From a virus, in IMG/VR virus record IMGVR_UViG_3300002488_000125, positions 1 through 20,221 of that record: a stretch of 20,221 nucleotides of DNA, one strand, 5' to 3'. The notes under the pieces are model-generated. The model had not been told where the DNA came from. It made no database searches and was given only the letters and a program-made list of their open reading frames with translations. The position numbers and the translations under genes are program-made. How positions within the stretch are numbered: position 1 is the first letter of the stretch; each line of letters starts with the position of its first letter. Shown in pieces: positions 2,444 through 19,738 of the stretch.

Positions 2444-2598
2444 ATGATTTTGAATCTACAAGGAAATCAACAACTTATGACGACTATTTAGATTTGTGTA
2501 ATGAATGTTACTCATACATTAGAGACGATGTGAAAGCAATCGAGCGATATGATTTAATGTCGATTGAAGACAGAGTTGACAGTGAGAAAAATTCGTGA
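2413..2598 (+). CDS. Small Cys4 zinc-binding protein
   Basis: This 61-residue protein starts inside the 3' end of the HTH gene, after GGGGTAAAAA. Residues C3-x2-C6 (CQAC) and C29-x2-C32 (CNEC) give a treble-clef/zinc-ribbon-like Cys4 site with a 22-residue loop, followed by an acidic helical tail (from RDDVKAIERY). Short proteins of this form are frequent in marine phages and are usually annotated only as hypothetical. It might bind nucleic acid or act as an adaptor for a host protein. The -35 box of the next promoter lies within its last codons. Confidence 0.65.
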   Translation: MRCQACDKLLNDFESTRKSTTYDDYLDLCNECYSYIRDDVKAIERYDLMSIEDRVDSEKNS

Positions 2599-2604
2599 TA
2601 CAAT
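2576..2604 (+). promoter_or_regulatory. Sigma-70-type promoter for the primase/polymerase unit
   Basis: TTGACA (2576-2581), a 17-bp spacer, then TACAAT (2599-2604), with TG at 2596-2597 giving an extended -10. The predicted start is near 2611, leaving a leader of about 30 nt to the ATG at 2642. The -35 is inside the end of the zinc-protein gene. The match to the bacterial housekeeping consensus is 11 of 12 box positions, so host RNA polymerase would be expected to use it. Confidence 0.8.
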
Positions 2605-2641
2605 GTCACTATATAGTTTCTAAGAGAGGATTATTATTATT

Positions 2642-2884
2642 ATGTATAATATACCTACAGAGATGACTCTTGAGGAGTTCAACAGTGCCATGACTGAGGC
2701 CAATGAGCACTTCTTATTGACTGATGTTGTGAATTTAATTTACCGTCACGGTCTGCATAAGTTCTTGTTGAGCCTCGCGGATCATTGTGAAGATGGACTG
2801 AGCACGTATGCGTTGGCTGAACTTGCAAAGATCTACAAGGAGAATGAACTTGACTTTTGTAAAGACGCACCAACCATGCAATGA
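2642..2884 (+). CDS. Hypothetical helical protein, first gene after the promoter
   Basis: This is an 80-residue protein. The ATG is preceded by AGAGAGGA (2623-2630) with an 11-nt ATT-repeat spacer. The sequence is mostly amphipathic helix (MTLEEFNSAMTEANEHFLL, then DVVNLIYRHGLHKFLLSLADH and a LSTYALAELAKIYKEN helix), with no catalytic motif. It overlaps the primase-helicase gene by about 40 nt and shares the same transcript, so it may be a small replication accessory, but no family is recognised. Confidence 0.65.
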   Translation: MYNIPTEMTLEEFNSAMTEANEHFLLTDVVNLIYRHGLHKFLLSLADHCEDGLSTYALAELAKIYKENELDFCKDAPTMQ

Positions 2885-4436
2885 CTGTGGTTCTAGCGAT
2901 GGGCTTGCTATCAATGATGATGGATGGACGCACTGCTTTGTCTGTGACGTACGTACAGCCCCTCAGAGAGACGATCTACCATTAACCAATACGGAGGTAC
3001 AGGTGGAAGCAAAAGTATTGTCAGTTACCCCTGAAAATTACAGGACTATTATTGACCGTGGTATCAACAGTGAGACCGCACGAACGTACAAGTGTGCCAA
3101 GTCTGGAGACAAGTATCACTTTCAATACACCAATGAATCCGGCGATATAATTGCGGAGAAGGTGCGTACACCTGATAAGCATTTTTCCATTGCAGGAGAT
3201 TGGACAAGCGCTGGGCTGTATGGTCAGCATTTGTTCTCCAAAGGCGGGAAGTATGTGACGATTGTGGAGGGTGAGTTTGATGCGATGGCGGCATACCAGA
3301 TGCTTGGGTCTAAATACCCAGTAGTGTCTATCCGCAACGGGGCATCTTCGGCGGTCAAGGATGTGCAAAAGCATTATGAGTGGCTCGATTCGTTTGACAA
3401 CATTGTCATATGTTTCGATGCAGATGAAGCAGGACAGAAAGCATCATCGCAAGTGGCTGAGTTATTCGGGGCCAAGGCCAAGGTGTTTCGACACGCCCAA
3501 GGTATGAAGGATGCTTGTGACTATCTGGTGACTAAGCATAACAAGGAGTTTACGGATAAGTGGTGGTCTTCTGAGCAACATGTACCGGATGGTATTGTAG
3601 TCGGTAGTAGTCTGTATGACGATGTCATGAAACCTCTTGCACCGGCTGACTGCGAGTACCCCTTTACAGGTGTAAATGAGTTGACGTACGGGATACGCAA
3701 AGGAGAACTGGTAACGATTACCGCAGGTTCAGGACTAGGGAAGTCTCAATTCGTTCGGGAGATTGTGTGGCACATCCTGAATAAGACAGAAGATAACATG
3801 GGTCTAATGTTTTTAGAGGAGTCTATTCGCAAAACTGGACTGTCGCTCATGTCACTGGCGGCGAATCAGCCCTTACACTTACCGGATACTACCGCAACTG
3901 TGGAGGAGAAGAAAGATGCGTTTGACAGGACACTGGGAACTGATCGTATGTATTTGTTTGATCACTTTGGGAGCACTTCTGTTGACAATATCGTTAATAG
4001 AGTACGCTACCTTGCCAAAGGATTGGGCTGTAGTTATATTTTTCTGGATCACATTAGCATCGTGGTATCTGCTCAAGCCAGCGGGGATGAGAGAAAAGCA
4101 ATAGATGAAATCATGACTAGACTTCGTATGCTTGTGCAGGAGACCGGCGTTGCTTTGATTGTGGTCTCTCATCTCAAGCGCCCTGACTCCAAGGGCCATG
4201 AAGAGGGTGCGGCGACCTCTTTGGCACAACTACGTGGCTCTGGATCTATCGCCCAGCTATCTGATATGGTGATCGGACTTGAGAGAAACGGTCAGGCAGA
4301 GGATACGACAGAACGCAACACTACACGAGTGCGTGTGCTGAAGAACCGATTCAGTGGGACTACTGGGCCTGCTTGTGCCTTGCTATATTCGCACAGCACT
4401 GGTAGGATGAATGAAATAGATGATGAGGATATCTAA
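2844..4436 (+). CDS. Bifunctional DNA primase-helicase (T7 gp4-like)
   Basis: It unwinds the fork and lays primers for the phage polymerase. Numbering from the ATG at 2844 (530 residues): a Cys4 zinc-binding site C12/C15/C31/C34 for primase template recognition; TOPRIM acidic residues at E142 (VEGEFD) and D192/D194 (CFDADEAG); Walker A GSGLGKS at 295-301; Walker B IFLDH at 399-403; a sensor H443 (VVSHLKRP); an RGSGSIAQ segment at 464-471; and a candidate arginine finger R502 (NRFSG). The acidic tail NEIDDEDI parallels the T7 gp4 tail that contacts polymerase. The start is debatable. The frame is open from an ATG at 2808, the ATG at 2844 is almost touching AAGGAG (2837-2842), and a TTG at 2850 has ideal spacing; all three keep the zinc site. 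It is directly followed by a GTG-started gene. Confidence 0.95.
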   Translation: MNLTFVKTHQPCNDCGSSDGLAINDDGWTHCFVCDVRTAPQRDDLPLTNTEVQVEAKVLSVTPENYRTIIDRGINSETARTYKCAKSGDKYHFQYTNESGDIIAEKVRTPDKHFSIAGDWTSAGLYGQHLFSKGGKYVTIVEGEFDAMAAYQMLGSKYPVVSIRNGASSAVKDVQKHYEWLDSFDNIVICFDADEAGQKASSQVAELFGAKAKVFRHAQGMKDACDYLVTKHNKEFTDKWWSSEQHVPDGIVVGSSLYDDVMKPLAPADCEYPFTGVNELTYGIRKGELVTITAGSGLGKSQFVREIVWHILNKTEDNMGLMFLEESIRKTGLSLMSLAANQPLHLPDTTATVEEKKDAFDRTLGTDRMYLFDHFGSTSVDNIVNRVRYLAKGLGCSYIFLDHISIVVSAQASGDERKAIDEIMTRLRMLVQETGVALIVVSHLKRPDSKGHEEGAATSLAQLRGSGSIAQLSDMVIGLERNGQAEDTTERNTTRVRVLKNRFSGTTGPACALLYSHSTGRMNEIDDEDI

Positions 4437-4652
4437 GTGATTAAACGCATACATGTTAATCAGCACAACATCCGCGCAAATGCAAAAGGTGCTGACTTGC
4501 CTATCTTTACGGTCAAGACTTATAAAGAGAACCGCAAAGGTAACAGGGTTGTCATTCAAGGAGACTCTGAGTTAGTCTATAGTCCTGACAAGCCTCTATC
4601 TTGTGGTGCGAAAGTGTGGATTGAAACAGAAGCGGAGGTAGTAATTGAATGA
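4437..4652 (+). CDS. Conserved-type hypothetical protein between helicase and polymerase
   Basis: This 71-residue protein starts with GTG directly after the helicase stop (TAAGTG) and overlaps the polymerase start by 4 nt (ATGA). The sequence is strand-rich and basic at the N-terminus (KRIHVNQHNIRANAKG) with a KTYKENRKGNRVVIQGD turn and an acidic C-terminal strand (KVWIETEAEVVIE), consistent with a small beta-barrel. Similar short proteins accompany T7-like replication genes in marine phages as I recall, but no function is established. Its place suggests a replication accessory (inference). Confidence 0.7.
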   Translation: MIKRIHVNQHNIRANAKGADLPIFTVKTYKENRKGNRVVIQGDSELVYSPDKPLSCGAKVWIETEAEVVIE

Positions 4653-6271
4653 AGGTATTGGTTCTCGACATTGAGACCAATCTAACGCACGATAATATTT
4701 GGTGCTGTGTTGCGAACGGTGATGTGTACACGGATGCTACTGGTCTGCAAGACCTGATCAATTCGCATGACATCATTGTCGGGCACAATATCATTGGGTT
4801 TGACGGGCCAGTGTTGTCTCGGGTTTGGGGAGTCAAGATTCCCCTCTCCAAAGTTCGTGACACTCTGGTCATGTCAAGGTTAGCAAACCCTCAGATTGAG
4901 GGAGGACACAGCCTACGTGCGTGGGGTGAACGTCTTGGTGATTTTAAAGATGACTTCACAGATTTTGACGGGGGTCTAACTCAAGAGATGATTGACTACT
5001 GCAAGCAGGATGTCCATGTCACAACACTGCTTTACAATCGACTAAAGCGAGAGCTTGATTTAATTGTCGGGTGTGCTGTGGAACTTGAGCATCAGATTGC
5101 ATTCATAATGAAGAGACAGGAAGACAATGGGTTTAAACTTAATATGCCAGAGGCTATCTCTCTATTGGCTCAACTTAAAGATCGAATGTCTTTTATTACT
5201 GACCACTTGCAAAATATATTTCCTCCGATTGTGGAAGAGCGTTGGTCTGAAAAAACAGGCAAGAGACTCAAAGATCGGGTTACCGTATTCAATGTGGGTT
5301 CAAGGCAACAGATCGCGCAAAGGCTTCAAAACCTTGGTGTCAAGTTTACTAAGAAGACTGAGAAAGGCAGTATCATAGTTGATGAGGGAACACTGAAGGA
5401 CATTGATTTACCTGAAGCACAACTGATCTCTGAGTACCTGATGATACAGAAACGTGTAGGCTTATTAGACTCTTGGATTGATAACATCAAAGATGATGAG
5501 CGTGTACACGGTAGAGTAATTACCAACGGTGCTGTGACCGGACGAATGACACACCAGAAACCAAATATGGGACAGATTCCTAGTGTTAACAGTGAGTATG
5601 GCGCTGAGTGTAGACGGCTGTGGACTGTTGATGATGGTAATGTACTGGTAGGTAGTGATCTATCAGGCATCGAACTACGGTGTCTTGCACATTACATGCA
5701 AGATAAAGAGTGGACAGAAGAGTTGTTGAATGGAGACATTCACCATAAGAACGCGATTGCGGCGGGGATTACCAGACCACAGGCCAAGACTCTTATCTAC
5801 GCCACGCTTTATGGCGCAGGACCAAGCAAGATTGGTGCTATTGTGGATGGGACGGCTAAGGATGGACAAAAGATACTTGACCGCTTCTATCAGGGAACCC
5901 CTGCGCTTTCTCGACTCATGTCAAAGGTTAAAACGATGGCGAGCAAAGGGTACGTACGCGGCTTAGACGGTAGACGGATTATCGTTAGGTCAGAACATGC
6001 CGCCCTCAATTCACTATTGCAAGGATGTGGGGCTATTATTGCAAAGCAATGGTGTATTGAAGCCCACAAGACTCTCAAGAAGCAACGGGTTCCTGTCAAG
6101 CAAGTTGCGTTTGTGCATGACGAAATCCAGATTGAAACAAAGGAGGAATATGGTCAACAGGTTGCGCTCTGCATGGTTGCCTCCGCTGTCAAGGCGGGGA
6201 TTACCTTGGGCTTTCGTTGCCCAGTAGACGCAGAAAGTAAAATTGGTTACAATTGGTTTGACACACATTGA
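4649..6271 (+). CDS. Family A DNA polymerase with 3'-5' exonuclease domain
   Basis: The replicative polymerase, 540 residues (T7 gp5 is 704). Exonuclease domain: D7/E9 (LDIETN), HNIIGFD at 46-52, and YCKQD at 117-121. Polymerase domain: TGRMTHQKPNMGQIP at 297-311; motif A with D337 (VGSDLSGIELR); motif B O-helix R376, K380, Y384, Y388-G; and motif C VHDE at 489-492. All proofreading and catalytic aspartates seen in the family are present, so the enzyme looks active. Y384 occupies the position of E. coli Pol I F762 and T7 Y526. The compactness comes from a short region between the two domains, and no thioredoxin-binding loop like that of T7 is obvious. The ATG overlaps the previous stop. The next promoter lies across its stop codon. 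Confidence 0.95.
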   Translation: MKVLVLDIETNLTHDNIWCCVANGDVYTDATGLQDLINSHDIIVGHNIIGFDGPVLSRVWGVKIPLSKVRDTLVMSRLANPQIEGGHSLRAWGERLGDFKDDFTDFDGGLTQEMIDYCKQDVHVTTLLYNRLKRELDLIVGCAVELEHQIAFIMKRQEDNGFKLNMPEAISLLAQLKDRMSFITDHLQNIFPPIVEERWSEKTGKRLKDRVTVFNVGSRQQIAQRLQNLGVKFTKKTEKGSIIVDEGTLKDIDLPEAQLISEYLMIQKRVGLLDSWIDNIKDDERVHGRVITNGAVTGRMTHQKPNMGQIPSVNSEYGAECRRLWTVDDGNVLVGSDLSGIELRCLAHYMQDKEWTEELLNGDIHHKNAIAAGITRPQAKTLIYATLYGAGPSKIGAIVDGTAKDGQKILDRFYQGTPALSRLMSKVKTMASKGYVRGLDGRRIIVRSEHAALNSLLQGCGAIIAKQWCIEAHKTLKKQRVPVKQVAFVHDEIQIETKEEYGQQVALCMVASAVKAGITLGFRCPVDAESKIGYNWFDTH

Positions 6272-6286
6272 TTAGTGTGTTATAAT
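6258..6286 (+). promoter_or_regulatory. Perfect-consensus sigma-70 promoter for the SSB/exonuclease unit
   Basis: TTGACA (6258-6263), exactly 17 bp, then TATAAT (6281-6286), with TG at 6278-6279 providing an extended -10. All twelve box positions match the housekeeping consensus. The -35 box is within the last codons of the polymerase gene. The expected start is near 6293, and the SSB-like gene begins at 6319 after AGGAG. A 6-bp inverted repeat lies between and partly within the boxes (see separate entry). Confidence 0.9.
6261..6280. repeat. Inverted repeat within the promoter spacer (operator-like)
   Basis: ACACAC (6261-6266) and GTGTGT (6275-6280) are exact reverse complements separated by 8 bp. 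They sit between the -35 and -10 boxes of a perfect promoter, where a bound dimer would block RNA polymerase. No U-run follows, so it is not a terminator. An operator function is inferred from position only. Confidence 0.45.
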
Positions 6287-6318
6287 ATTAGTTCATTCAC
6301 TTCCCACAGGAGAAAAGT

Positions 6319-6726
6319 ATGAGTGAAGTATTTAAGTTCCAAGACATAGAGCTATTCTGGCCTAGTCTTTATGAAGTCAATCCGACTTCTAATAAGTACC
6401 AAGTTGACTTGGTAAATCTCAGCCCCAAACAGGTTGACAAGCTTGAAAGTCTTGGCATTGAAGTCAAGTCCAAAGATGATGAGCGTGGCTTTTTTGTTAC
6501 GTGTAAGTCTAAATATGAGATCGTACCTTACGACTCCAACGGGGACGCTTTAGAGCGCAACATCAAAGTGGGCAACGGCTCTCGCGCTAGTGTGATGGTT
6601 AAGCCATACGCATGGAAAGGCCCAACAGGTAACAAGGGCGTTTCTCTTGGTGTGTCCAAGCTTGTAGTCACAGACCTGAAGAAGTACGTTCAGGAAGAGT
6701 CTGATGAGGACGTTGAAATCCTGTGA
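6319..6726 (+). CDS. Single-stranded DNA-binding protein-like
   Basis: This 135-residue protein has a good AGGAG 8 nt before the ATG. The strand-rich body with spaced aromatics (KFQDIELFWPSLYE, GFFVTCKSKYEIVPYD, RASVMVKPYAWKG) and an acidic, hydrophobic-ended tail (EESDEDVEIL) is the classic profile of phage SSBs such as T7 gp2.5, whose acidic tail recruits replication partners. Length is shorter than gp2.5 (232 residues). Its position directly before the exonuclease and behind its own strong promoter fits a protein needed in large amounts. The OB fold is inferred, not demonstrated. Confidence 0.7.
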   Translation: MSEVFKFQDIELFWPSLYEVNPTSNKYQVDLVNLSPKQVDKLESLGIEVKSKDDERGFFVTCKSKYEIVPYDSNGDALERNIKVGNGSRASVMVKPYAWKGPTGNKGVSLGVSKLVVTDLKKYVQEESDEDVEIL

Positions 6727-7406
6727 TTGGATTAATTGATGGCGACATTCTTTGCTATCGCATTGGGTTTGCAACGAATGAAGAGTCTGAGAGCGTGGCT
6801 ATCCGCACGATGGCCGCATTCTTAGAAGATATGCTGATGTTTGATATTGAGTGCAATGATTGGAAAACATACCTAACAGGCTCGACAAACTATCGGAATA
6901 ACTACGCCATCACTGCGTCATACAAAGGAACTAGAACAGGAGAAAAACCAACGCACCACGCTTTATTGCGCGAGTACTTACTCACTGGATGGAATGGTGT
7001 GATAACTGAAGGGAATGAAGCTGATGACGCTATTGCTATTGCTTGTACTGAGTACGGTGACGATAGCGTTATCATTTCCTTAGATAAAGATTTTGATCAG
7101 GTGCAAGGGTGGCACTATAATTTTGTTAAGAAGGAGAAGTATTACATAACACCCGAAGAGGGATTGCTTAATTTTTATTGTCAGTTCTTAACTGGAGATA
7201 GAATTGATAACATTATTGGTGTAAGAGGTATCGGCCCTGTTAAAGCAAACAAACTTTTAGAGGGTAAAACAGAACAGGAGATGTTCGATATCTGCGTTGA
7301 AGAGTTAGGTAGTCGTGATCGTGCAATTGAAAATGGTATTCTTTTGTACCTACAAAGAAAACAAAATGAGATATGGAGTCCTCCAGATGAAAGCCCAATC
7401 AGCTAA
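6723..7406 (+). CDS. 5'-3' exonuclease / flap endonuclease (T7 gp6-like)
   Basis: A structure-specific nuclease of 227 residues, expected to remove primers and degrade host DNA for nucleotides. Metal-binding acidic residues are visible: D6/D8 (LIDGDIL), E99/D101/D102 (NEADDA), D121/D123 (SLDKDFD) and D159/D162 (GDRIDN). The helix-three-turn-helix DNA-binding motif is at about 164-178 (IIGVRGIGPVKANKL). The start is GTG at 6723, overlapping the SSB stop (GTGA). The length fits the short phage form of the PIN/FEN family. It overlaps the downstream nuclease by 20 nt. Confidence 0.9.
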   Translation: MIGLIDGDILCYRIGFATNEESESVAIRTMAAFLEDMLMFDIECNDWKTYLTGSTNYRNNYAITASYKGTRTGEKPTHHALLREYLLTGWNGVITEGNEADDAIAIACTEYGDDSVIISLDKDFDQVQGWHYNFVKKEKYYITPEEGLLNFYCQFLTGDRIDNIIGVRGIGPVKANKLLEGKTEQEMFDICVEELGSRDRAIENGILLYLQRKQNEIWSPPDESPIS

Positions 7407-7725
7407 AGCTAAGGGAAGAAAGTTACAACAATGGACTCGTGATCTCGTATTACAGACGTATACTCACTTGGAGGAAGACGATGTCAGAAGTACCAGTATG
7501 GGTGTCAGTGGCAGTGATCTGCAACTTAGTCCTTTGGCTCGTAAGTCTTTCGCGTATGATGTTGAATGCAAGTCGCTTGCGAGAGTTGGAGTCTATCGTT
7601 ATGTTGACCAGTGCAACAATCGAGGCGATGCACAGCCGCTTGTCATTGTTAAAGAAAACAGAAGAAGACCTCTCGCAGTCGTAGACGCAGAGCACTTCTT
7701 TGAACTGTTAAGGAATCAGAAATGA
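7387..7725 (+). CDS. PD-(D/E)XK-type nuclease
   Basis: A 112-residue protein from the ATG at 7387, with TGGAG 8 nt upstream; the frame is open from 7315, but that start would overlap the exonuclease by 92 nt with no ribosome-binding site. Candidate catalytic residues are D44 in SGSDLQL and E60-x-K62 in VECKS, the D...ExK signature of the restriction-endonuclease/Holliday-resolvase fold, preceded by the DDVRSTSMGVSG segment seen in phage nucleases of this type. It likely resolves branched replication intermediates or cuts host DNA, as endonuclease I does in T7. Downstream overlap is ATGA (7722-7725). A second ORF is nested in the +1 frame (see findings). Confidence 0.75.
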   Translation: MKAQSAKAKGRKLQQWTRDLVLQTYTHLEEDDVRSTSMGVSGSDLQLSPLARKSFAYDVECKSLARVGVYRYVDQCNNRGDAQPLVIVKENRRRPLAVVDAEHFFELLRNQK

Positions 7726-8483
7726 AACACATGGTCATACCTGATACGCAAGTCAAGCCGGGAAACTCGACTGAGCATTTGCGTTGGGCAGGAGAATATG
7801 CCGTTGAAAAGAAGCCTGATGTGATTGTTCACATTGGAGATCATTTTGATATGCCTTCTTTATCTACCTATGACGTAGGAAAAAAATCATTTGAGGGAAG
7901 ACGATATATCAATGATATCAATGCGGGCATTGAAGCAATGCGTGTATTCTTAGAGCCTATCGAAAAAGAACGCAAACGATTACAACGAAATCGTCACAAG
8001 CAATGGAATCCTCGCATGGTGTTCACTCTGGGTAATCATGAGTACCGTATTGCTAGAGCTATCAATGCTGATCCAAAGCTTGAGGGCTTGATGTCGTTTG
8101 ATGATTTACATTTAACTGAAATGGGATGGGAGGTCTATGATTTTTTACAGCCCGTGGTTATTGATGGTGTATGTTATAGTCATTACTTTGTTAGTGGTGT
8201 CATGGGAAGACCAGTAAGCTCTTCTAACGCACTGATTAATAAACAACATATGTCATGTATTATGGGCCACGTACAGGATCGCTCGATCAGCTACGCAAGA
8301 CGTGCAGACGGTAAGAGAATTACAGGACTGTTTGCCGGTATCTTTTATCAACACAATGAGGAGTATTTAAACCCACAAACTAATGGATCATGGTCTGGTA
8401 TTTGGATGCTTCATGAGGTCATGGACGGTACATTCGATGAGATGCCCGTATCTATCAACTACTTGAGGAATCGCTATGCCTGA
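7722..8483 (+). CDS. Calcineurin-like metallophosphoesterase
   Basis: A 253-residue protein with the binuclear-metal signature in order: D8-T-Q10 (the usual DxH with Gln for His), GDHFD at 39-43, GNHEYR at 104-109, H154 (YSHYF) and GH at 182-183. The family hydrolyses phosphoester bonds; the phage members' substrates are mostly undetermined and could be nucleotides, nucleic-acid ends or signalling nucleotides. It lies between nucleases and RNR, so a part in nucleotide salvage or DNA processing is reasonable. It has no signal peptide, so it is cytoplasmic. It overlaps the next gene by 8 nt. Confidence 0.9.
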   Translation: MKHMVIPDTQVKPGNSTEHLRWAGEYAVEKKPDVIVHIGDHFDMPSLSTYDVGKKSFEGRRYINDINAGIEAMRVFLEPIEKERKRLQRNRHKQWNPRMVFTLGNHEYRIARAINADPKLEGLMSFDDLHLTEMGWEVYDFLQPVVIDGVCYSHYFVSGVMGRPVSSSNALINKQHMSCIMGHVQDRSISYARRADGKRITGLFAGIFYQHNEEYLNPQTNGSWSGIWMLHEVMDGTFDEMPVSINYLRNRYA

Positions 8484-8727
8484 TTTGTCAGAGATTGCAG
8501 AAGCCTATGCCGCAGAAATTGCAAGAGACCATCAAGTTGGAGGCAATCATTATCAAAAATCAATACAACCTTGGGACTATATGGAAGTTGTTTTAACAGA
8601 AGAACAGTTCAAAGGATACTTAATTGGTAATGTAATCAAATACATATCACGGTTTCAAGACAAAGGAGGTATTGTTGACCTTGAAAAATGTTCACATTAT
8701 CTTGACAAACTCAAAGAAGTGTGGTAA
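8476..8727 (+). CDS. DUF3310 family small protein
   Basis: This is an 83-residue protein with the recognisable DUF3310 core: VGGNHY (21-26), QPWDYM, LIGNVIKYISRF, a short K-GG linker, and a C-terminal DLEKCSHYLDKLKE helix. The family is common in phages and is sometimes labelled a nucleotide-kinase-like protein, but its biochemical role is not settled. Placement between the metallophosphoesterase and RNR fits nucleotide metabolism. The promoter for the RNR block overlaps its 3' end. Confidence 0.85.
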   Translation: MPDLSEIAEAYAAEIARDHQVGGNHYQKSIQPWDYMEVVLTEEQFKGYLIGNVIKYISRFQDKGGIVDLEKCSHYLDKLKEVW

Positions 8728-8730
8728 AAT
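8702..8730 (+). promoter_or_regulatory. Sigma-70-type promoter for the RNR block
   Basis: TTGACA (8702-8707), 17 bp, then TAAAAT (8725-8730), with TG at 8722-8723 as an extended -10. This is 11 of 12 box matches. The expected start near 8737 falls just after the ATG at 8733 of the first small ORF, so this promoter would serve nrdA rather than that ORF. It shares the AGTGTG sequence just upstream of the -10 with the promoter at 6258. Confidence 0.75.
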
Positions 8731-8732
8731 AA

Positions 8733-8909
8733 ATGTTTACGCTTGAAGATATTAAAGATAAGCTCAAGCAGTTAGATGAGGTAACTCTAATGGAAGTGTT
8801 AGAGATTACCTCAGATGACTTGGTAGAACGGTTCGTAGATAAAATCGAACAAAAAGAAGAGACACTGGAGAATGATTTAGATGACTCAACACCTTGGGAT
8901 AACGATTGA
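8733..8909 (+). CDS. 58-residue acidic helical protein ending in TPWDND
   Basis: The ORF reads MFTLEDIKDKLKQLDEVTLM at its start and ends DDSTPWDND, with a helical, very acidic middle. It fills the gap between the DUF3310 gene and nrdA and overlaps the nrdA start by 29 nt. The ribosome-binding site is weak (AGAAG about 13 nt upstream). Similar short 'LEDLK...DEVTL' proteins with a TPWD-type end occur before RNR or other genes in marine podoviruses as far as I recall, with no known function. An acidic tail ending in a short aromatic motif may be a partner-binding peptide (inference). Confidence 0.6.
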   Translation: MFTLEDIKDKLKQLDEVTLMEVLEITSDDLVERFVDKIEQKEETLENDLDDSTPWDND

Positions 8910-10638
8910 TTATGAAAGAGACAGTCGCCTCAGTGATCAAGCACATACGCTCATGCGTGATTACTATATGTATGAACATGAAACTTCTCCTCAAGAAGCT
9001 TTTGCTCGTGCTAGTGTGGCCTATTGCGCGGATGATCTCAACCTTGCACAGCGTATTTATGATTATGCTTCAAAAGGTTGGTTTATGTTTGCGTCACCTG
9101 TGTTGTCAAACGCACCTGACAATGCACGAAACAATAGGGGCTTGCCTATTAGTTGTTTCCTTACTTACGTGGGGGACAATCTTGATAGTCTTATTGAACA
9201 TAATGGAGAAATAGCATGGCTTTCCGTAAAGGGCGGCGGTGTGGGTGGTCACTGGGGGGACGTGAGAGGTATCAGCGACAAGGCTCCCGGCCCGATACCG
9301 TTCATGAAAGTAGTGGACAGTCAGATGACTGCTTACAAACAAGGAAAGACACGGAAGGGAAGCTACGCCGCATACCTAGACGTAAGTCATCCTGATATTG
9401 AGGAGTTTATCTCCTTCAAAGTACCCACTGGCGGTGATATTAATCGCAAGTGTTTTAATCTTTTTAATGCAGTGAATATCACTGATGCTTTTATGGAGGC
9501 AGTAATTAATGATACCGAATGGCAACTTACAGACCCACATACAGGAGTTACAAGAGATACAGTCCAAGCTCGTGCGCTGTGGCAACGAATCCTTGAAGCT
9601 AGGTTCAGAACTGGCAGTCCTTACATTAACTTTATCGACACAGCCAGAAAACACTTACCGGAAGCTCAGAGAAAACTTGGATTGTCAATTAATGGCAGTA
9701 ACCTCTGCAATGAAATCCATCTCGCAACAAGTAAAGAACGCACAGCAGTCTGTTGCCTCTCCTCCGTCAACCTCGAAAAGTACGATGAGTGGAGAGCAAG
9801 CGGAATGGTTGGAGACCTTATCCGATTCTTGGACAACGTCATTCAATACTTTATTGACAACGCACCAGAAGAACTGGGAAAAGCTGTCTACTCAGCTTAC
9901 AGAGAACGCTCAGTCGGCCTTGGAGCAATGGGCTTCCACGGCTACCTCCAAAGTAAAAATATAGCATGGGAATCATGGCAGGCCGCAAGTGAAAACTACA
10001 AACTCTTTCAAGATATTAAACAACAGTCTGCGTACTCAACATACCAACTCGCTGTGGAACGTGGCGAATGCCCTGATGGAGTGGGTACTGGTGTTAGGAA
10101 TATGCATCTCTTGGCTGTTGCTCCTAACGCTAACAGCAGTATCTTATGTGGGTGCAGTCCTAGCATTGAACCACGCATTAGTAACTGCTATGTTCATCGC
10201 ACTCGTGCCGGTAGTCATACTGTGCGTAATCCGTATCTGGAGGGAGTCTTAGAATTTTATGGTAAAAATACCAAGAAAGTATGGTCATCTATCATTGAAA
10301 GTGAAGGCTCAGTTCAGCATTTGGAATTTCTCAGCGACTCAGAAAAAGACACATTTAAGACAGCGTTTGAACTGGATCAGACGTGGGTTATTGAACATGC
10401 GGCCAAGCGACAGGAGTTTATCTGCCAAGGCCAAAGCGTCAACGTATTCTTCCCGTCTGGGACTAACAAGGCTTTTGTCAACCAAGTCCACCTTCAAGCG
10501 TGGAAGCAGGGTCTCAAGGGGTTATACTATCTCCGCACTACAGCAGGGGTTACTGCTGAGAAGGTTGGGACTAAAGTGGGAAGGGACGCACTAAAAGACT
10601 TTGTAGATGAGGAGGTGTGTGTATCATGTCAGGGTTAA
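8881..10638 (+). CDS. nrdA: Ribonucleotide reductase class I large (alpha) subunit, short form
   Basis: It reduces ribonucleoside diphosphates to dNDPs together with NrdB. In its 585 residues the catalytic set is complete: C92 (PISCF) and C291 as the redox pair, C276 as the thiyl-radical site within N274-x-C-x-E278, Y549/Y550 (LYYLRT) for radical transfer, and C580/C583 (CVSC) as the C-terminal reducing pair. Also present are the nucleotide-binding-loop segments (KGGGVGGHWG, 117-126; CGCSPSIEPRISN, 423-435). E. coli NrdA is 761 residues; the N-terminal ATP-cone (about 100 residues) is absent, so dATP shut-off through that domain is not expected. GGAG lies 10 nt before the ATG. It is followed by a small ORF and nrdB in the same operon. 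No thioredoxin or glutaredoxin gene is seen nearby. Confidence 0.97.
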   Translation: MTQHLGITIDYERDSRLSDQAHTLMRDYYMYEHETSPQEAFARASVAYCADDLNLAQRIYDYASKGWFMFASPVLSNAPDNARNNRGLPISCFLTYVGDNLDSLIEHNGEIAWLSVKGGGVGGHWGDVRGISDKAPGPIPFMKVVDSQMTAYKQGKTRKGSYAAYLDVSHPDIEEFISFKVPTGGDINRKCFNLFNAVNITDAFMEAVINDTEWQLTDPHTGVTRDTVQARALWQRILEARFRTGSPYINFIDTARKHLPEAQRKLGLSINGSNLCNEIHLATSKERTAVCCLSSVNLEKYDEWRASGMVGDLIRFLDNVIQYFIDNAPEELGKAVYSAYRERSVGLGAMGFHGYLQSKNIAWESWQAASENYKLFQDIKQQSAYSTYQLAVERGECPDGVGTGVRNMHLLAVAPNANSSILCGCSPSIEPRISNCYVHRTRAGSHTVRNPYLEGVLEFYGKNTKKVWSSIIESEGSVQHLEFLSDSEKDTFKTAFELDQTWVIEHAAKRQEFICQGQSVNVFFPSGTNKAFVNQVHLQAWKQGLKGLYYLRTTAGVTAEKVGTKVGRDALKDFVDEEVCVSCQG

Positions 10639-10796
10639 AGAATTTATTACAGAGATTAGAGTTATTAAAAGATGTTGACCCTTTTAACAAGCAACTTTTA
10701 AATGACTGTTATGACAGTCTAAACGAATTAATAGAGAGAAATAAACTACTGGAGAAACAATTGTATGGGCTTGCTGGAACAGAACAAAAGCTATAA
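10626..10796 (+). CDS. 56-residue coiled-coil ORF between nrdA and nrdB
   Basis: An ATG at 10626, with GAGGAGG about 8-10 nt upstream, opens a 56-codon ORF that overlaps nrdA by 13 nt and nrdB by 32 nt. The product (start MSGLKNLLQRLELLKDV, later LNELIERNKLLEKQLYGL) has leucine/isoleucine spacing typical of a helical coiled coil. It fully occupies the 126-bp space between the two RNR genes. The strong ribosome-binding site and overlaps favour real translation. No family is recognised; it may be unrelated to RNR or may couple the subunits (inference). Confidence 0.6.
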   Translation: MSGLKNLLQRLELLKDVDPFNKQLLNDCYDSLNELIERNKLLEKQLYGLAGTEQKL

Positions 10797-11715
10797 ACCA
10801 TTTAGTTATCCTTGGGCTGTGTCGTATGCCACAGAGCATGAACGCATCCACTGGATAGAAGATGAACTGGAGTTACAAACAGATGTATCGCATTGGAAAT
10901 CTGGTAAACTATCAACGCAAGAAAAAAATCATATCACCCAAATCCTGCGGCTATTTACGCAGACAGACGTGGCGGTTGGAACAAACTATCTTGAGTATTA
11001 CATACCCAAGTTTAAGAACAATGAGATTAGAGCCATGCTCACAGCCTTTGCTTCTCGTGAGTTCATACACCAACGAGCATACGCCTTACTCAATGACACT
11101 CTCGGATTACCTGAAGAGGAATTCACAGCGTTTTTAGAATATCAACAGATGGCAGACAAAGTAGAATTTATGGGGGACATAGATGTACATTCCTTGTCAG
11201 GAACAGGTCTGGCTATTGCACGATCTGTACTCAATGAAGGGATGTCATTGTTCAGTGCATTCGCCATGTTACTCAACTACCAACGCTTCGGCAAGATGCC
11301 GGGAATGTGTACAGTTGTGGAGTGGTCAGTCAGGGACGAGTCGCAACATGCAGAGGGTATGGCAAAACTCTTTAGAGAATTTTGTGAAGAGCATCCAAGG
11401 ATCGTAAATGATGAATTCAAGAAAGATATATACGAAATGTTTAGACAAGCTGTCAAACTTGAAGACAAGGTTATTGATCTTGCATACGAGATGGGAGCTT
11501 TGGAAGGACTCACTGCGGGAGAAGTTAAACAGTATATACGTTACCTTGCAGATAGAAGGCTTATCCAACTGGGTCTCAAGCCGAATTGGAAAGTTAAAGA
11601 CAATCCTATCCCGTGGATGGAAGAGTTGATTGGAGGGTCTAGCATCAGTAACTTTTTTGAGAAGCGTGTTACAGATTATAATGCTCAAGGTATGACAGGA
11701 ACATGGGGGTGGTAA
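10765..11715 (+). CDS. nrdB: Ribonucleotide reductase class I small (beta) subunit
   Basis: The radical-generating ferritin-like partner of NrdA, 316 residues. All six carboxylate/histidine metal ligands and the radical tyrosine are present at E. coli-like spacing: D68, E99, H102, Y106, E158, E192 and H195 (E. coli D84, E115, H118, Y122, E204, E238, H241). This marks a class Ia/Ib-type tyrosyl-radical enzyme and argues against the metal-free class Ie or tyrosine-lacking class Ic. The C-terminal tail (GMTGTWGW) should dock into the large subunit. It is a little shorter than E. coli NrdB (376). GGAG lies about 10 nt before the ATG. The stop overlaps the next start (TAATG). Confidence 0.97.
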   Translation: MGLLEQNKSYKPFSYPWAVSYATEHERIHWIEDELELQTDVSHWKSGKLSTQEKNHITQILRLFTQTDVAVGTNYLEYYIPKFKNNEIRAMLTAFASREFIHQRAYALLNDTLGLPEEEFTAFLEYQQMADKVEFMGDIDVHSLSGTGLAIARSVLNEGMSLFSAFAMLLNYQRFGKMPGMCTVVEWSVRDESQHAEGMAKLFREFCEEHPRIVNDEFKKDIYEMFRQAVKLEDKVIDLAYEMGALEGLTAGEVKQYIRYLADRRLIQLGLKPNWKVKDNPIPWMEELIGGSSISNFFEKRVTDYNAQGMTGTWGW

Positions 11716-12109: not shown

Positions 12110-12131
12110 GCCCTCTTCGGAGGGCTTTTTT
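12110..12131 (+). terminator. Rho-independent terminator with TTCG loop
   Basis: GCCCTC (12110-12115), TTCG loop (12116-12119), GAGGGC (12120-12125), then six T residues (12126-12131). The stem is perfect, and the UUCG tetraloop is the most stable type. It ends the plus-strand unit. The T-tract runs into the stop codon of the converging minus-strand gene. On the minus strand the hairpin is not followed by a U-run, so termination there would be weaker. Confidence 0.93.
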
Positions 12132-17102: not shown

Positions 17103-18134
17103 TTACTGTTTAATAATGTAATTCAGCACTAATGTAGGCTGAATAATGTTGTGTGCGGATGATGCGTCTGCGGCGGCTATGTTATTGGTTTCAGTAATGC
17201 CTGTTGATTGAGGATCTGTAGTCACTTCACCCCCGCCACTAGTGCTTGTAGTCATGTTTGGTTTATTAGTCCCACCCGACCCACTTGCATTAATATTAGT
17301 TGTATGAGCATGGCTAGGATCAGTAATAGTGTGTTTATGCTCAGGCAATCCTGATTCACCACTTGTTAACAAGTGAGTATTTTTACCACCGGCAGAGCCA
17401 AGGACTGCACCATCAAATGCAAACGTTAAGGCTGTATCATCTGCAATAGTAACATTAGCTGACAATACAATATCTGTTTGACTGTTAATCTTAATAACAG
17501 TAACTTCACTTGAAATTCCTGTGCCTGTAATTTTCATTCCAAGAACAATAGTACCGCTATTACTATCAACCAGAATGTTAGAAGTACTTGTAAATGATCC
17601 ATTAGCACTTGCGGTAGCCGTGGTAGCTCCATTGTCTCCTGTTAAACGAGAAGCCGCAGAGCCTCCCATATCATCTTGACCGGCAATAGTACGCCCACGG
17701 AGATCAGGAACATTAAAGGTTGTTCCGCTTGAAGCATTACCGTCTCCTGCTCCATACGTAGTTCCAATAACCGCAAAAAGATTTGCATATGTGCTACGAC
17801 TAACGGCTTGCCCATCACATAAAAACCATCCCGTAGGTGCTGACGTTCCTGCAAACGGTGCAAGCATTCCTGATGGAATTGTAACCAAAGCTCCTACCGC
17901 AGTCTGTACAAATGCCGTAGTTGCTAATTGTGTTGTATTAGTACTAGAGCCTGCCGTAGGAGCCGCAGGAGTTCCTGTAAAGGTTGGGGACTCAATCATT
18001 GCTTTTTCTGCAATAGAAACTTGAATTGCAGTAAACTCTGCGTCTATTTCTGTGCCTTTAATAATTTTATTAGCGTCTCCACTAGAAAGATTATCTTTAC
18101 TTGCAAAGTTCGTTAATTTTGAATAATTAGCCAT
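17103..18134 (-). CDS. Tail fibre protein with phage tail-collar domain
   Basis: A 343-residue receptor-binding candidate. Residues 44-80 carry a common fibre linker (SPTFTGTPAAPTAG, then TTQLATTAFVQTAV). From about 88 the collar domain begins: GMLAPFAGTSAPTGWFLCDG, with YANLFAVIGTTYGAGDG and FNVPDLRGRTIAGQDDMGG. After RLTG (163-166) comes an insertion of about 75 residues, then the domain resumes at LGSAGGKNTH, with H254, H267-x-H269 and H275-x-H277 resembling the metal-binding HxH motifs of fibre tips. The end NIIQPTLVLNYIIK closes the collar fold. The N-terminus (1-43) probably anchors it to the tail. The start overlaps the previous stop (TAATG). Confidence 0.88.
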   Translation of the reverse strand: MANYSKLTNFASKDNLSSGDANKIIKGTEIDAEFTAIQVSIAEKAMIESPTFTGTPAAPTAGSSTNTTQLATTAFVQTAVGALVTIPSGMLAPFAGTSAPTGWFLCDGQAVSRSTYANLFAVIGTTYGAGDGNASSGTTFNVPDLRGRTIAGQDDMGGSAASRLTGDNGATTATASANGSFTSTSNILVDSNSGTIVLGMKITGTGISSEVTVIKINSQTDIVLSANVTIADDTALTFAFDGAVLGSAGGKNTHLLTSGESGLPEHKHTITDPSHAHTTNINASGSGGTNKPNMTTSTSGGGEVTTDPQSTGITETNNIAAADASSAHNIIQPTLVLNYIIKQ

Positions 18135-19738
18135 TACAAAATCCTGCCTTGTTTAACGTATGCATCTAATTTTTGAATTGATATTTCTGCACCATTAAGA
18201 TTAGCTTCAAAACCAACCTGAAGAATGCTTCCTGTTCCTGATCCCGGAAGTCTTACAATATCTGAAATAGTTCCGCTTGTGTATTCCGCAGGAGTTGAAT
18301 CATCTGAACTTGTTGCACCATTAGCACCGTATTCAGCAATCCCATATTCTGCGACTGCTAGGTCTTCTAATCTTGCAGGATATGACGTGTAATTATCAGT
18401 ATAATCAAATCCTGCTTTAAAAATAAATCGTTGGTCAACCCCGCCAATAATGGTAGCAGAAATTCGTTTTAACATTTTAGTTGTAGTTGAGTTACCAAAA
18501 TCAAAATAATTAGTAAAATATTGAAACGTATATTGGGCGGTATTATCATTGTATCCAAAATATTCTGCAAGGCCATCGGTTTGCATAAACAAAACAGAGT
18601 TAGCTAAAGATAACATATTATTTTGATTTTGGGTATCCCAAACAGTAACTCTAAGAGACCCGTCTTGCAAGGGAGCGCGGGTGTCAAAACAATATATCTG
18701 TTGAACATGGGGAAACAACAACAAATAAAATGCATTGTCTTCAGAATAAACTGATCTAATTTGTTCTACATTTGCAACGGCTGTTAAATTAACTACATCA
18801 TCTCTTACGTTTTTAGATAAATCACGCATTGGCAGTGACTTTTCTTGAACAACCCTACCGAGACTTCTCAGGCCATCTTCAGACAAAAAGAAAATATCAA
18901 TACCAGTGTTTTGAATACTGTCTCGTGCAACACAACCTACGCGACTAATAACTTCAACAAGCCTAAGATTAGCAGGATCGAAAGAAGAACTACCACCGGT
19001 ATCATCAAATATTACAATGTTTCGTTTGCAAAAAACAATAAACTGTCCATTCTGAGCACCCATGCTAATAATTTCATCAGTGCCATTAATAAGAATTGCA
19101 GATAAATTAATTGAACCTGCGGAACCAGTGCTCCAATCTGCACCGTCAAGCAGATCAGAAAAATACACAGTCATTTTATCGTAGTAAGAATTATCGCTTG
19201 GGTCTTGAATATCTGCAGTCCACAAACGACCATAAGCAGAAAGTACAGTATTACCGGGAGGTGCTTGAGTAGTGCTATTAATACTAACACCGCTAAACGA
19301 TGTCTCATCTTCTACATCTTTAATGGTTCCGTTAGCTGGGTTATACACCATTGGTTTGTAGCCACGTTGAAAGTAATAGGCCTTATCGTTAAGTGTAGCG
19401 CATTGCCAGTTACCTGCAGTAAAGGTATTGTCAGATGTAGGTGTAATTTCAGTAAGTGTTGTAGTGCCTTTGTAAAACTTAGTTGCAGACCACGATAGAA
19501 TCGTCTCAGTGCCTTCAATATCAATAAAACGATGAGAACCTAACAAATTGACTGCCGAGCCGCCTGAGGTCGTTATATAACGCCAACCCTTACGCGCACC
19601 TAGGCGTCCATATTTGTCAATAATGCAGTTATTAGCAGTTAATGCAAATCCACTTTCAAGCGTAATACCAGACTCTTGGGTATTTAAGCCAAAGAATCCC
19701 GGTGCGGCAATACTAAGTGCTTGTAACGGTTTAGCCAT
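18134..19738 (-). CDS. Tail nozzle / DNA-stabilisation-type protein
   Basis: A 534-residue, strand-rich protein. The N-terminal segment APGFFGLNTQESGITLESGF, followed by ANNCIIDKYGRLGARKGW, is characteristic of phage tail-closure proteins that read 'N...D..G.l..R.G...'. Repeated four-strand units follow (GTETILSWSATKFYKG; NGQFIVFCKRNIVIF; DIFFLSEDGLRSLG), consistent with a beta-propeller-like body as in P22 gp10 or T7 gp12. It would form the distal tube that retains packaged DNA. It directly follows the adaptor-like gene (TAAATG junction) and precedes the fibre gene, a normal podovirus order. I am sure of a tail role, less sure which family. Confidence 0.75.
   Translation of the reverse strand: MAKPLQALSIAAPGFFGLNTQESGITLESGFALTANNCIIDKYGRLGARKGWRYITTSGGSAVNLLGSHRFIDIEGTETILSWSATKFYKGTTTLTEITPTSDNTFTAGNWQCATLNDKAYYFQRGYKPMVYNPANGTIKDVEDETSFSGVSINSTTQAPPGNTVLSAYGRLWTADIQDPSDNSYYDKMTVYFSDLLDGADWSTGSAGSINLSAILINGTDEIISMGAQNGQFIVFCKRNIVIFDDTGGSSSFDPANLRLVEVISRVGCVARDSIQNTGIDIFFLSEDGLRSLGRVVQEKSLPMRDLSKNVRDDVVNLTAVANVEQIRSVYSEDNAFYLLLFPHVQQIYCFDTRAPLQDGSLRVTVWDTQNQNNMLSLANSVLFMQTDGLAEYFGYNDNTAQYTFQYFTNYFDFGNSTTTKMLKRISATIIGGVDQRFIFKAGFDYTDNYTSYPARLEDLAVAEYGIAEYGANGATSSDDSTPAEYTSGTISDIVRLPGSGTGSILQVGFEANLNGAEISIQKLDAYVKQGRIL

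Follow-up and report, generated by a model that had tools for sequence, protein, structure and literature searches.

Host-type promoters and a candidate translational operator before the SSB gene in the replication arm of an uncultivated phage lineage

The stretch of viral DNA analysed here, hereafter the window, comprises positions 1 to 20,221 of IMG/VR record IMGVR_UViG_3300002488_000125, 20,221 nucleotides (nt) in full. Its replication genes lie on the + strand and are interspersed with three near-identical predicted promoters of the host sigma-70 type (A, B and C). Promoter B is followed by a short predicted RNA hairpin that overlaps the Shine-Dalgarno sequence of a gene encoding a single-stranded DNA-binding protein (SSB). 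The features are listed below (aa, amino acids; ORF, open reading frame).

2576..2604, + strand: promoter A; TTGACA, 17-bp spacer, TG, TACAAT; the TG lies within the TGA stop codon of an upstream 61-aa ORF
2808..4436, + strand: primase/helicase (phrog_239, E 1.8e-175)
4649..6271, + strand: family A DNA polymerase with 3'-5' exonuclease (PF00476, PF01612)
6258..6286, + strand: promoter B; TTGACA, 17-bp spacer, TG, TATAAT (12/12); the -35 lies in the final DNA polymerase codons
6259..6282, + strand: dyad TGACACAC/GTGTGTTA, across the -35, the polymerase stop codon and the -10 of promoter B
6299..6318, + strand: SSB-leader hairpin (RNA); ACTT, CC, loop CACA, GG, bulge AGAA, AAGT; from covariation and a covariance model
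6319..6726, + strand: SSB, gp2.5-like ssDNA-binding protein (phrog_112, E 7.5e-9; no match in Pfam)
8702..8730, + strand: promoter C; TTGACA, 17-bp spacer, TG, TAAAAT; the -35 lies in the DUF3310 codons CTT GAC A
8733..8909, + strand: 58-aa ORF, its ATG two bases after the promoter C -10; no family match
8881..11715, + strand: ribonucleotide reductase, large chain 8881-10638 and small chain 10765-11715 (PF02867, PF00317, PF00268)
12110..12125, + strand: intrinsic terminator at the junction of two converging arms; T-run on the + side only

Promoter A is followed by an 80-aa ORF, the primase/helicase and then the polymerase; promoter B by SSB, a 5'-3' exonuclease, a resolvase-like protein, a phosphoesterase and DUF3310; and promoter C by the 58-aa ORF and the large and small reductase chains. 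The structural arm, which includes genes with tail-type matches, occupies the opposite strand and converges on the terminator. A DNA methyltransferase-like gene lies 5' of promoter A at 1173-1793 (phrog_757, E 9e-61). The entire window is contained in a 36,314-base IMG/VR contig (G001) at 99.99% identity (2 mismatches in 20,221), and Megablast of the window against the phage collection returned no similar record. The closest polymerase, that of HTVC103P, is 47% identical, and the protein encoded at 18134-19738 has a single match, weak and partial. A scan of genome contigs for the host gave one match only, at 28%.

The pattern TTGACA-N14-TGnTAnAAT matches the window exactly three times, always on the + strand and at the positions of A, B and C, against a mean of 0.01 and a largest count of 1 in 100 dinucleotide shuffles of the window. 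This confirms the three sites described in the initial annotation, together with their 11, 12 and 11 of 12 matches to TTGACA/TATAAT, the TG one base before each -10 and the 17-bp spacers. A looser scan listed 42 promoter-like sites (41 in shuffles), among which B (12 of 12) and A and C (11 of 12 each) ranked at the top and were the sole listed sites with TG; the signal is thus confined to the near-perfect class. Since the search pattern was picked after the sites had been seen, tests outside the window are the ones that count. A genome-wide scan had been proposed, and an equal frequency of the motif inside genes was to speak against promoters. With a slightly wider pattern, G001 carries six sites, three per strand (0.01 in shuffles), all six at gene boundaries and none within a gene, although boundary positions make up only 7.3% of its 29-mers. 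Of the three sites other than A, B and C, one lies, by coordinates, 211-239 bases past the right end of the window and is directed towards the structural genes. Among eight further contigs scanned, seven have two to five sites each and one (G007) has none. In the nine contigs together, 27 of 32 sites fall at boundaries by an automatic gene call. The other five (G002-G005 and G009) are the promoter of the divergent region, each overlapped by a short called ORF (46-88 aa) that in four cases lies on the opposite strand; we judge these ORFs to be probably spurious. Contig G002, which contains locus L012, measures 74.7 kb, about twice the length of G001 and G003 (35-36 kb), despite a similar promoter order; the excess is either extra DNA or a joined assembly.

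The junctions carrying A, B and C were compared in 80 related loci plus the window, counting distinct sequences and requiring a site that has TG and matches the hexamers at 10 or more of 12 positions. Such a site was kept at A in 26 of 41 sequences, at B in 40 of 48 and at C in 24 of 34, while none of 485 distinct 90-mers from the interior of the polymerase gene qualified. Several C sites of a distant branch have no TG, yet retain TTGACA and TAnAAT. The spacer of exactly 17 bp holds at all three sites in the window but does not extend to the relatives, in which 18 bp is the commonest length at B (28 of 50 distinct sequences parsed by regular expression, of 70).

Codon usage under the -35 hexamers points the same way. 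At site C, where the -35 coincides with Leu-Asp-Lys codons, Asp is encoded by GAC in 31 of 31 distinct sequences (background GAC 46%) and the first codon is CTT in 30 of 31, the remaining one being a Val GTT. Neighbouring codons are free: the Tyr codon two before Asp is TAT in 16 and TAC in 15, and five Leu codons occur at the position after Lys. At site B, counted over loci with polymerases at least 60% identical, all 50 Phe codons beneath the -35 are TTT (background 58%), whereas Asp is encoded by GAC in 47 and by GAT in 11. The sequences share kinship, so no p-value is given and the free neighbouring codons serve as the control. The codon constraint at site C exceeds what protein coding needs. 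Thus, of the two origins first suggested for the uniformity of the promoters, selection is supported by the conserved positions and by the site C codons, whereas common origin is not, as A, B and C lie in unrelated coding sequence. Inverted repeats CAAGAG...CTCTTG occur in some promoter A leaders (for example, L012 and L024; 9 of 41 distinct A leaders by a strict regular expression) and in divergent promoter leaders (G002, G003). In distant relatives the junction A region is, by eye, rich in CTATATAG/TAGCTA repeats and is possibly an origin or a regulatory leader.

Hexamers 16-18 bp apart, a TG motif, and placement upstream of genes with rarity inside them are the properties of sigma-70 extended -10 promoters, and the sites described here show them. 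No match to the single-subunit RNA polymerase gene (PF00940) by which T7-type phages (Autographiviridae) are recognised was found in the 16 contigs searched from the lineage and its relatives (G001-G016, possibly incomplete); phage HTVC019P, used as a control, matched at 4e-106. Promoters for a phage RNA polymerase were rejected as an identity for the sites, no gene for such an enzyme having been found in these contigs. Direct use of the host RNA polymerase, as first proposed, is therefore supported as a probable reading.

The sites had also been described both as segmenting the replication region and as repeatedly boosting its expression. Boosting fits better, as the only strong + strand terminator-like site follows the replication arm: the site at 12110-12125 is the only one on this strand with at least four G-C pairs before 15 kb. 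Weaker sites (three G-C pairs) occur between A and C, in a scan that gave 21 against 13.4 in shuffles, and weak termination may take place there. Taken together, use of the host polymerase with repeated boosting appears well supported by the sequence data.

Each promoter had also been said to start a functional unit, and for C this would hold with respect to the reductase. The usual distance from -10 to transcription start is 7 nt, and the ATG of the 58-aa ORF (8733) lies two bases 3' of the promoter C -10, TAAAAT, which itself overlaps the DUF3310 TAA stop codon. RNA from the predicted start at 8737 would begin inside the 58-aa ORF and lack its start codon. It would therefore serve the reductase and not the small ORF directly after C, which would need read-through from B. 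That the C transcript would begin within a small ORF had been overlooked in the initial annotation, as had the three promoters on the other strand and the SSB-leader hairpin.

The hairpin follows promoter B, takes the Shine-Dalgarno GG of the SSB gene into its predicted stem and ends right before the ATG (6319). A covariance model placed it at 6295-6322 with 30.2 bits, the window row being among the rows from which the model was built. Stems differ among relatives (ATACCA/TGGTAT, AGTCA/TGACT, ACTCA/TGAGT, ATAGCA/TGCTAT, ATCACA/TGTGAT) around a constant core of CC and GGAnAA. Of 119 loci (not deduplicated) whose polymerase is at least 65% identical to that of the window, 115 have the hairpin; neither of two loci without a polymerase match has it. 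At E<=0.01 the model matched the SSB leader in seven of nine whole contigs (G001-G003, G005-G008) and gave no match in G004 and G009. By its distribution in these sequences, the hairpin marks the lineage. Its presence in cultivated relatives was rejected for the portions of the HTVC103P, HTVC115P, ctYwJ313 and HTVC019P records that were scanned, in which no SSB leader was matched; HTVC115P gave one weak match in structural genes (E 0.06). Other matches unlinked to an SSB leader, in L154, L153 and L148 (E 0.011-0.48) and in L100 (E 5.5), may be due to chance. No Rfam family matches the hairpin; at E<=1 the window gave one match elsewhere, below the gathering score, and five relatives gave none at the gathering threshold, so that a known RNA family was rejected as its identity. 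No earlier report of this SSB-leader hairpin was found in the literature searched. At locus L027 a tRNA-Cys gene (GCA; L027:11111-11185) lies between promoter B and SSB, at the place of the hairpin in relatives. Outside the lineage (the group of L219, L223, L224, L225 and L227), other possible Shine-Dalgarno hairpins were seen by eye in SSB leaders (GTTGG...CCAAC; ATCTCAT...ATGAGAT), and masking may be more widespread.

The outer stem of the hairpin covaries. To avoid circularity, leaders were anchored on CC-loop-GGA[GC]AA alone, ignoring pairing; the anchor is present in 123 of 196 SSB leaders, which give 43 distinct strings. At least four contiguous outer pairs form in 36 of these 43, and Watson-Crick cells over six positions number 207, whereas 2000 swaps average 112 and never exceed 156; sliding the register lowers the count greatly. 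The leftmost-CC rule misplaces the L063, L065 and L070 rows, which were counted against the structure and pair fully at the next CC; tree and lineage counts use next-CC anchoring for such rows. Four other anchored strings without a stem (L118, L156, L159 and L175, polymerases 51-61% identical to the nearest query) were counted in. In a set of 23 natural rows, each of the six outer pairs shows changes in both of its bases; such cells number 46, where shuffles give 14.8 (0/500). Pairing is seen in 94% of cells, in 68% after shuffling and in no more than 45% in slid registers.

A polymerase tree was made for 37 of the 43 strings, chosen for an almost full-length polymerase with 60% or more identity to a query. 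On it, the four-base stem pair changed at least 12 times, the 5' arm 12 and the 3' arm 11 times. One of the 12 changes affects a single side (GCTT/AAGT) and another produces L118, which is unpaired, so that about ten replacements keep the pairing; the tree is a quick one with 9 of 34 inner branches starred, and these numbers are rough. A collection-wide pattern that fixes two outer pairs only hit 83 places in 83 viral-contig stretches. At least five pairs form in 55 of the 56 places adjacent to SSB (23 distinct strings), and at most four in 24 of the 27 elsewhere (22 distinct strings).

In 100 of 111 loci the distance from the -10 to the beginning of the stem is 2-13 nt; in eight it is 49 nt, and the remaining three have no recognised -10. 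Messenger RNA from promoter B would therefore mostly begin at or near the hairpin. Within the structure, the GG of the Shine-Dalgarno sequence is paired while its other bases are bulged, and the start codon directly or closely follows the stem. From this arrangement we infer the classic form of a translational operator, and the one-sided four-base bulge and the G-U pairs favour an RNA over a palindrome in DNA; a DNA-level reading of the SSB hairpin was rejected on the same two features.

In this account the host RNA polymerase would transcribe the replication arm, starting at no fewer than three extended -10 promoters of the sigma-70 type that are placed within the ends of upstream genes and add to read-through, A preceding primase and polymerase, B preceding SSB and exonuclease, and C preceding ribonucleotide reductase. 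Promoter B would act as one unit with the short hairpin, which sits at the 5' terminus of the SSB message or close to it. There the invariant CC would pair with the Shine-Dalgarno GG and the hairpin would close just before the start codon, keeping SSB translation low until the hairpin is opened or a factor is released. Should a regulator exist, SSB itself would be the leading candidate. The hairpin is best read as an operator that probably governs SSB translation and is coupled to a promoter of the host type, and we put the probability of the whole, host transcription from at least three extended -10 promoters with a promoter B-coupled hairpin that lowers SSB translation, at roughly 70%.

Several observations weigh against this reading. 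The strict TG-containing form is not kept in 15 of 41 A, 8 of 48 B and 10 of 34 C sites, and the absence of an RNA polymerase gene depends on contigs that are possibly incomplete. The predicted stability of the hairpin is modest (-4.8 to -8.1 kcal/mol), with nine of ten z-scores between -0.5 and -1.2. The minimum-energy structure differs in two of the seven first folds (L056 and L023), and in the best fold of the window the bulge is displaced by one base and SSB codons take part in an additional outer helix. Two of the five measures in the whole-structure test, the number of pairs changed on both sides and the number of pair types, did not exceed the shuffles (343 and 145 of 500), and the inner CC/GG pairs are invariant, so that covariation gives no test of them. 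Finally, the hairpin is missing in L027, L036, L046 and L209 despite polymerases at least 65% identical to that of the window, and it is present in only 2 of 32 loci at 55-65% polymerase identity and 2 of 43 at lower identity.

The hairpin could instead be a 5'-terminal stabiliser that protects the transcript from 5'-end-dependent decay, its overlap with the Shine-Dalgarno sequence being incidental. The stem start a few nucleotides past the -10 in most loci and the short stems of moderate stability would suit such a role. A stabiliser, however, has no need for CC opposite the Shine-Dalgarno GG, yet this is kept in 23 of 23 rows, nor for a stem that finishes at the start codon or a few bases from it, and the L008 group (eight loci) keeps its hairpin 49 nt past the -10; we consider this alternative unlikely. 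A target for a host or phage factor other than SSB, such as a CsrA-like repressor or an endonuclease that cuts at GGAG, seems rather improbable. In its favour, A precedes GGA in 39 of 43 strings, and three relatives have a similar hairpin ahead of another, unrelated gene. CsrA recognises a core A-N-GGA in a hairpin loop. This core, however, is present in only 22 of the 43 strings, and the GG is predicted to be paired and outside the loop; on the count of the core, a CsrA site appears less likely.

Control of promoter B at the DNA level, by a repressor on the dyad between the -35 and the -10, is more doubtful still. The dyad TGACACAC/GTGTGTTA has variants in relatives (AGACTCAC/GTGAGTTT and TGTCAC/GTGATA) and folds at -9.4 kcal/mol (z -2.65). 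The signal of own over swapped arms is weak, the best stem averaging 5.62 over 69 distinct sequences and 5.11 over swaps (maximum in 300 swaps, 5.33). Part of the match is explained by coding and promoter constraints: pairing is partly forced, since Asp-Thr-His is encoded in the 5' arm and the TG motif overlaps the 3' arm. Moreover, ACACGCA opposite TGTGTGT requires a G-U pair, which is better suited to RNA. The dyad could serve as an operator in DNA or form an 8-bp hairpin in read-through mRNA. That A, B and C are chance or coding by-products can be practically dismissed: the -35 hexamers of B and C do sit in conserved codons, but shuffling predicts 0.01 sites where three are seen, the codons under the -35 are constrained while adjoining codons are free, and all six G001 sites lie at boundaries against 0 of 485 control segments.

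A second hairpin of the CC-loop-GGAnAA form was found in G008 (L099:2935-2962), after a promoter-like site on the structural strand; the gene behind it encodes 80 aa and begins with TTG. Inspection by eye and folding suggest a comparable form before the orthologue of this gene in L123 and L285, the model having found the G008 copy only; all three distinct leaders of that gene seen in this branch (G008, L123 and L285) seem to have it. At the same gene, clade-1 genomes have GGAGAA-ACTC-n-GAGT or close variants instead. It is tempting, though the odds are against it, to see in the hairpin a new class of phage translational operator (stem-CC-loop-GGAnAA-stem'-start codon) serving a small regulon, in which one trans-acting factor ties the replication arm to the structural arm. 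If so, the factor would perhaps be SSB, released as single-stranded DNA runs out, and replication and structural genes would be coupled in a phage without a polymerase of its own for timing.

Host-type promoters in a phage lacking its own polymerase are ordinary by themselves; we judge the SSB-leader hairpin and promoter B to be the part most worth following. A phage seemingly without its own RNA polymerase may tune expression by repeated near-consensus host promoters that set its level, with translation of the replication SSB perhaps governed by the RNA hairpin that accompanies one such promoter. Phages of the SIO1/cobavirus group are described as lacking RNA polymerase (PMC6775973, PMC6918029). 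The present lineage resembles them in that no single-subunit enzyme was found and in its host-type promoters and two opposed arms with a terminator between; it differs in the near-consensus promoters recurring at fixed gene junctions, and the word promoter does not occur in the available main text of those two papers. The reductase here has large and small chains (PF02867/PF00317/PF00268), whereas that of cobaviruses is cobalamin-dependent. HTVC103P-type pelagiphages (PMC8528129) share the two-arm layout and have the closest cultivated polymerase (47%) and primase (50-54%). RNA polymerase gave no match in HTVC103P or HTVC115P. Their SSB precedes the primase, and the hairpin model has no match at it in the record parts that include SSB.

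Short bulged hairpins over a Shine-Dalgarno sequence and start codon are known from the coat-protein operator of R17/MS2. The SSB-leader hairpin differs from that operator in its four-base bulge on the 3' side and in the gene, SSB, that follows. STAXI, a repeated pseudoknot, is a structured RNA found near SSB genes among others (PMC2864571), whereas the present element is a single bulged hairpin without an Rfam match. Gene 32 of T4 and RB69 has an autogenous translational operator with a conserved leader RNA structure and diverging sequence (PMC535899), and the present leader resembles it as a phage SSB leader with a conserved RNA structure near the ribosome binding site. In T4, a pseudoknot lies 5' of the Shine-Dalgarno sequence and is accompanied by a less structured region of UUAAA repeats (PMC535899), whereas here a small bulged hairpin itself holds the Shine-Dalgarno GG; a structure 5' of a less structured Shine-Dalgarno sequence, as in gp32-type leaders, was not found, no pseudoknot search having been made. 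If the hairpin binds SSB, uncultivated phages would achieve the autoregulation known from T4 gene 32 in a second way, through a different RNA structure.

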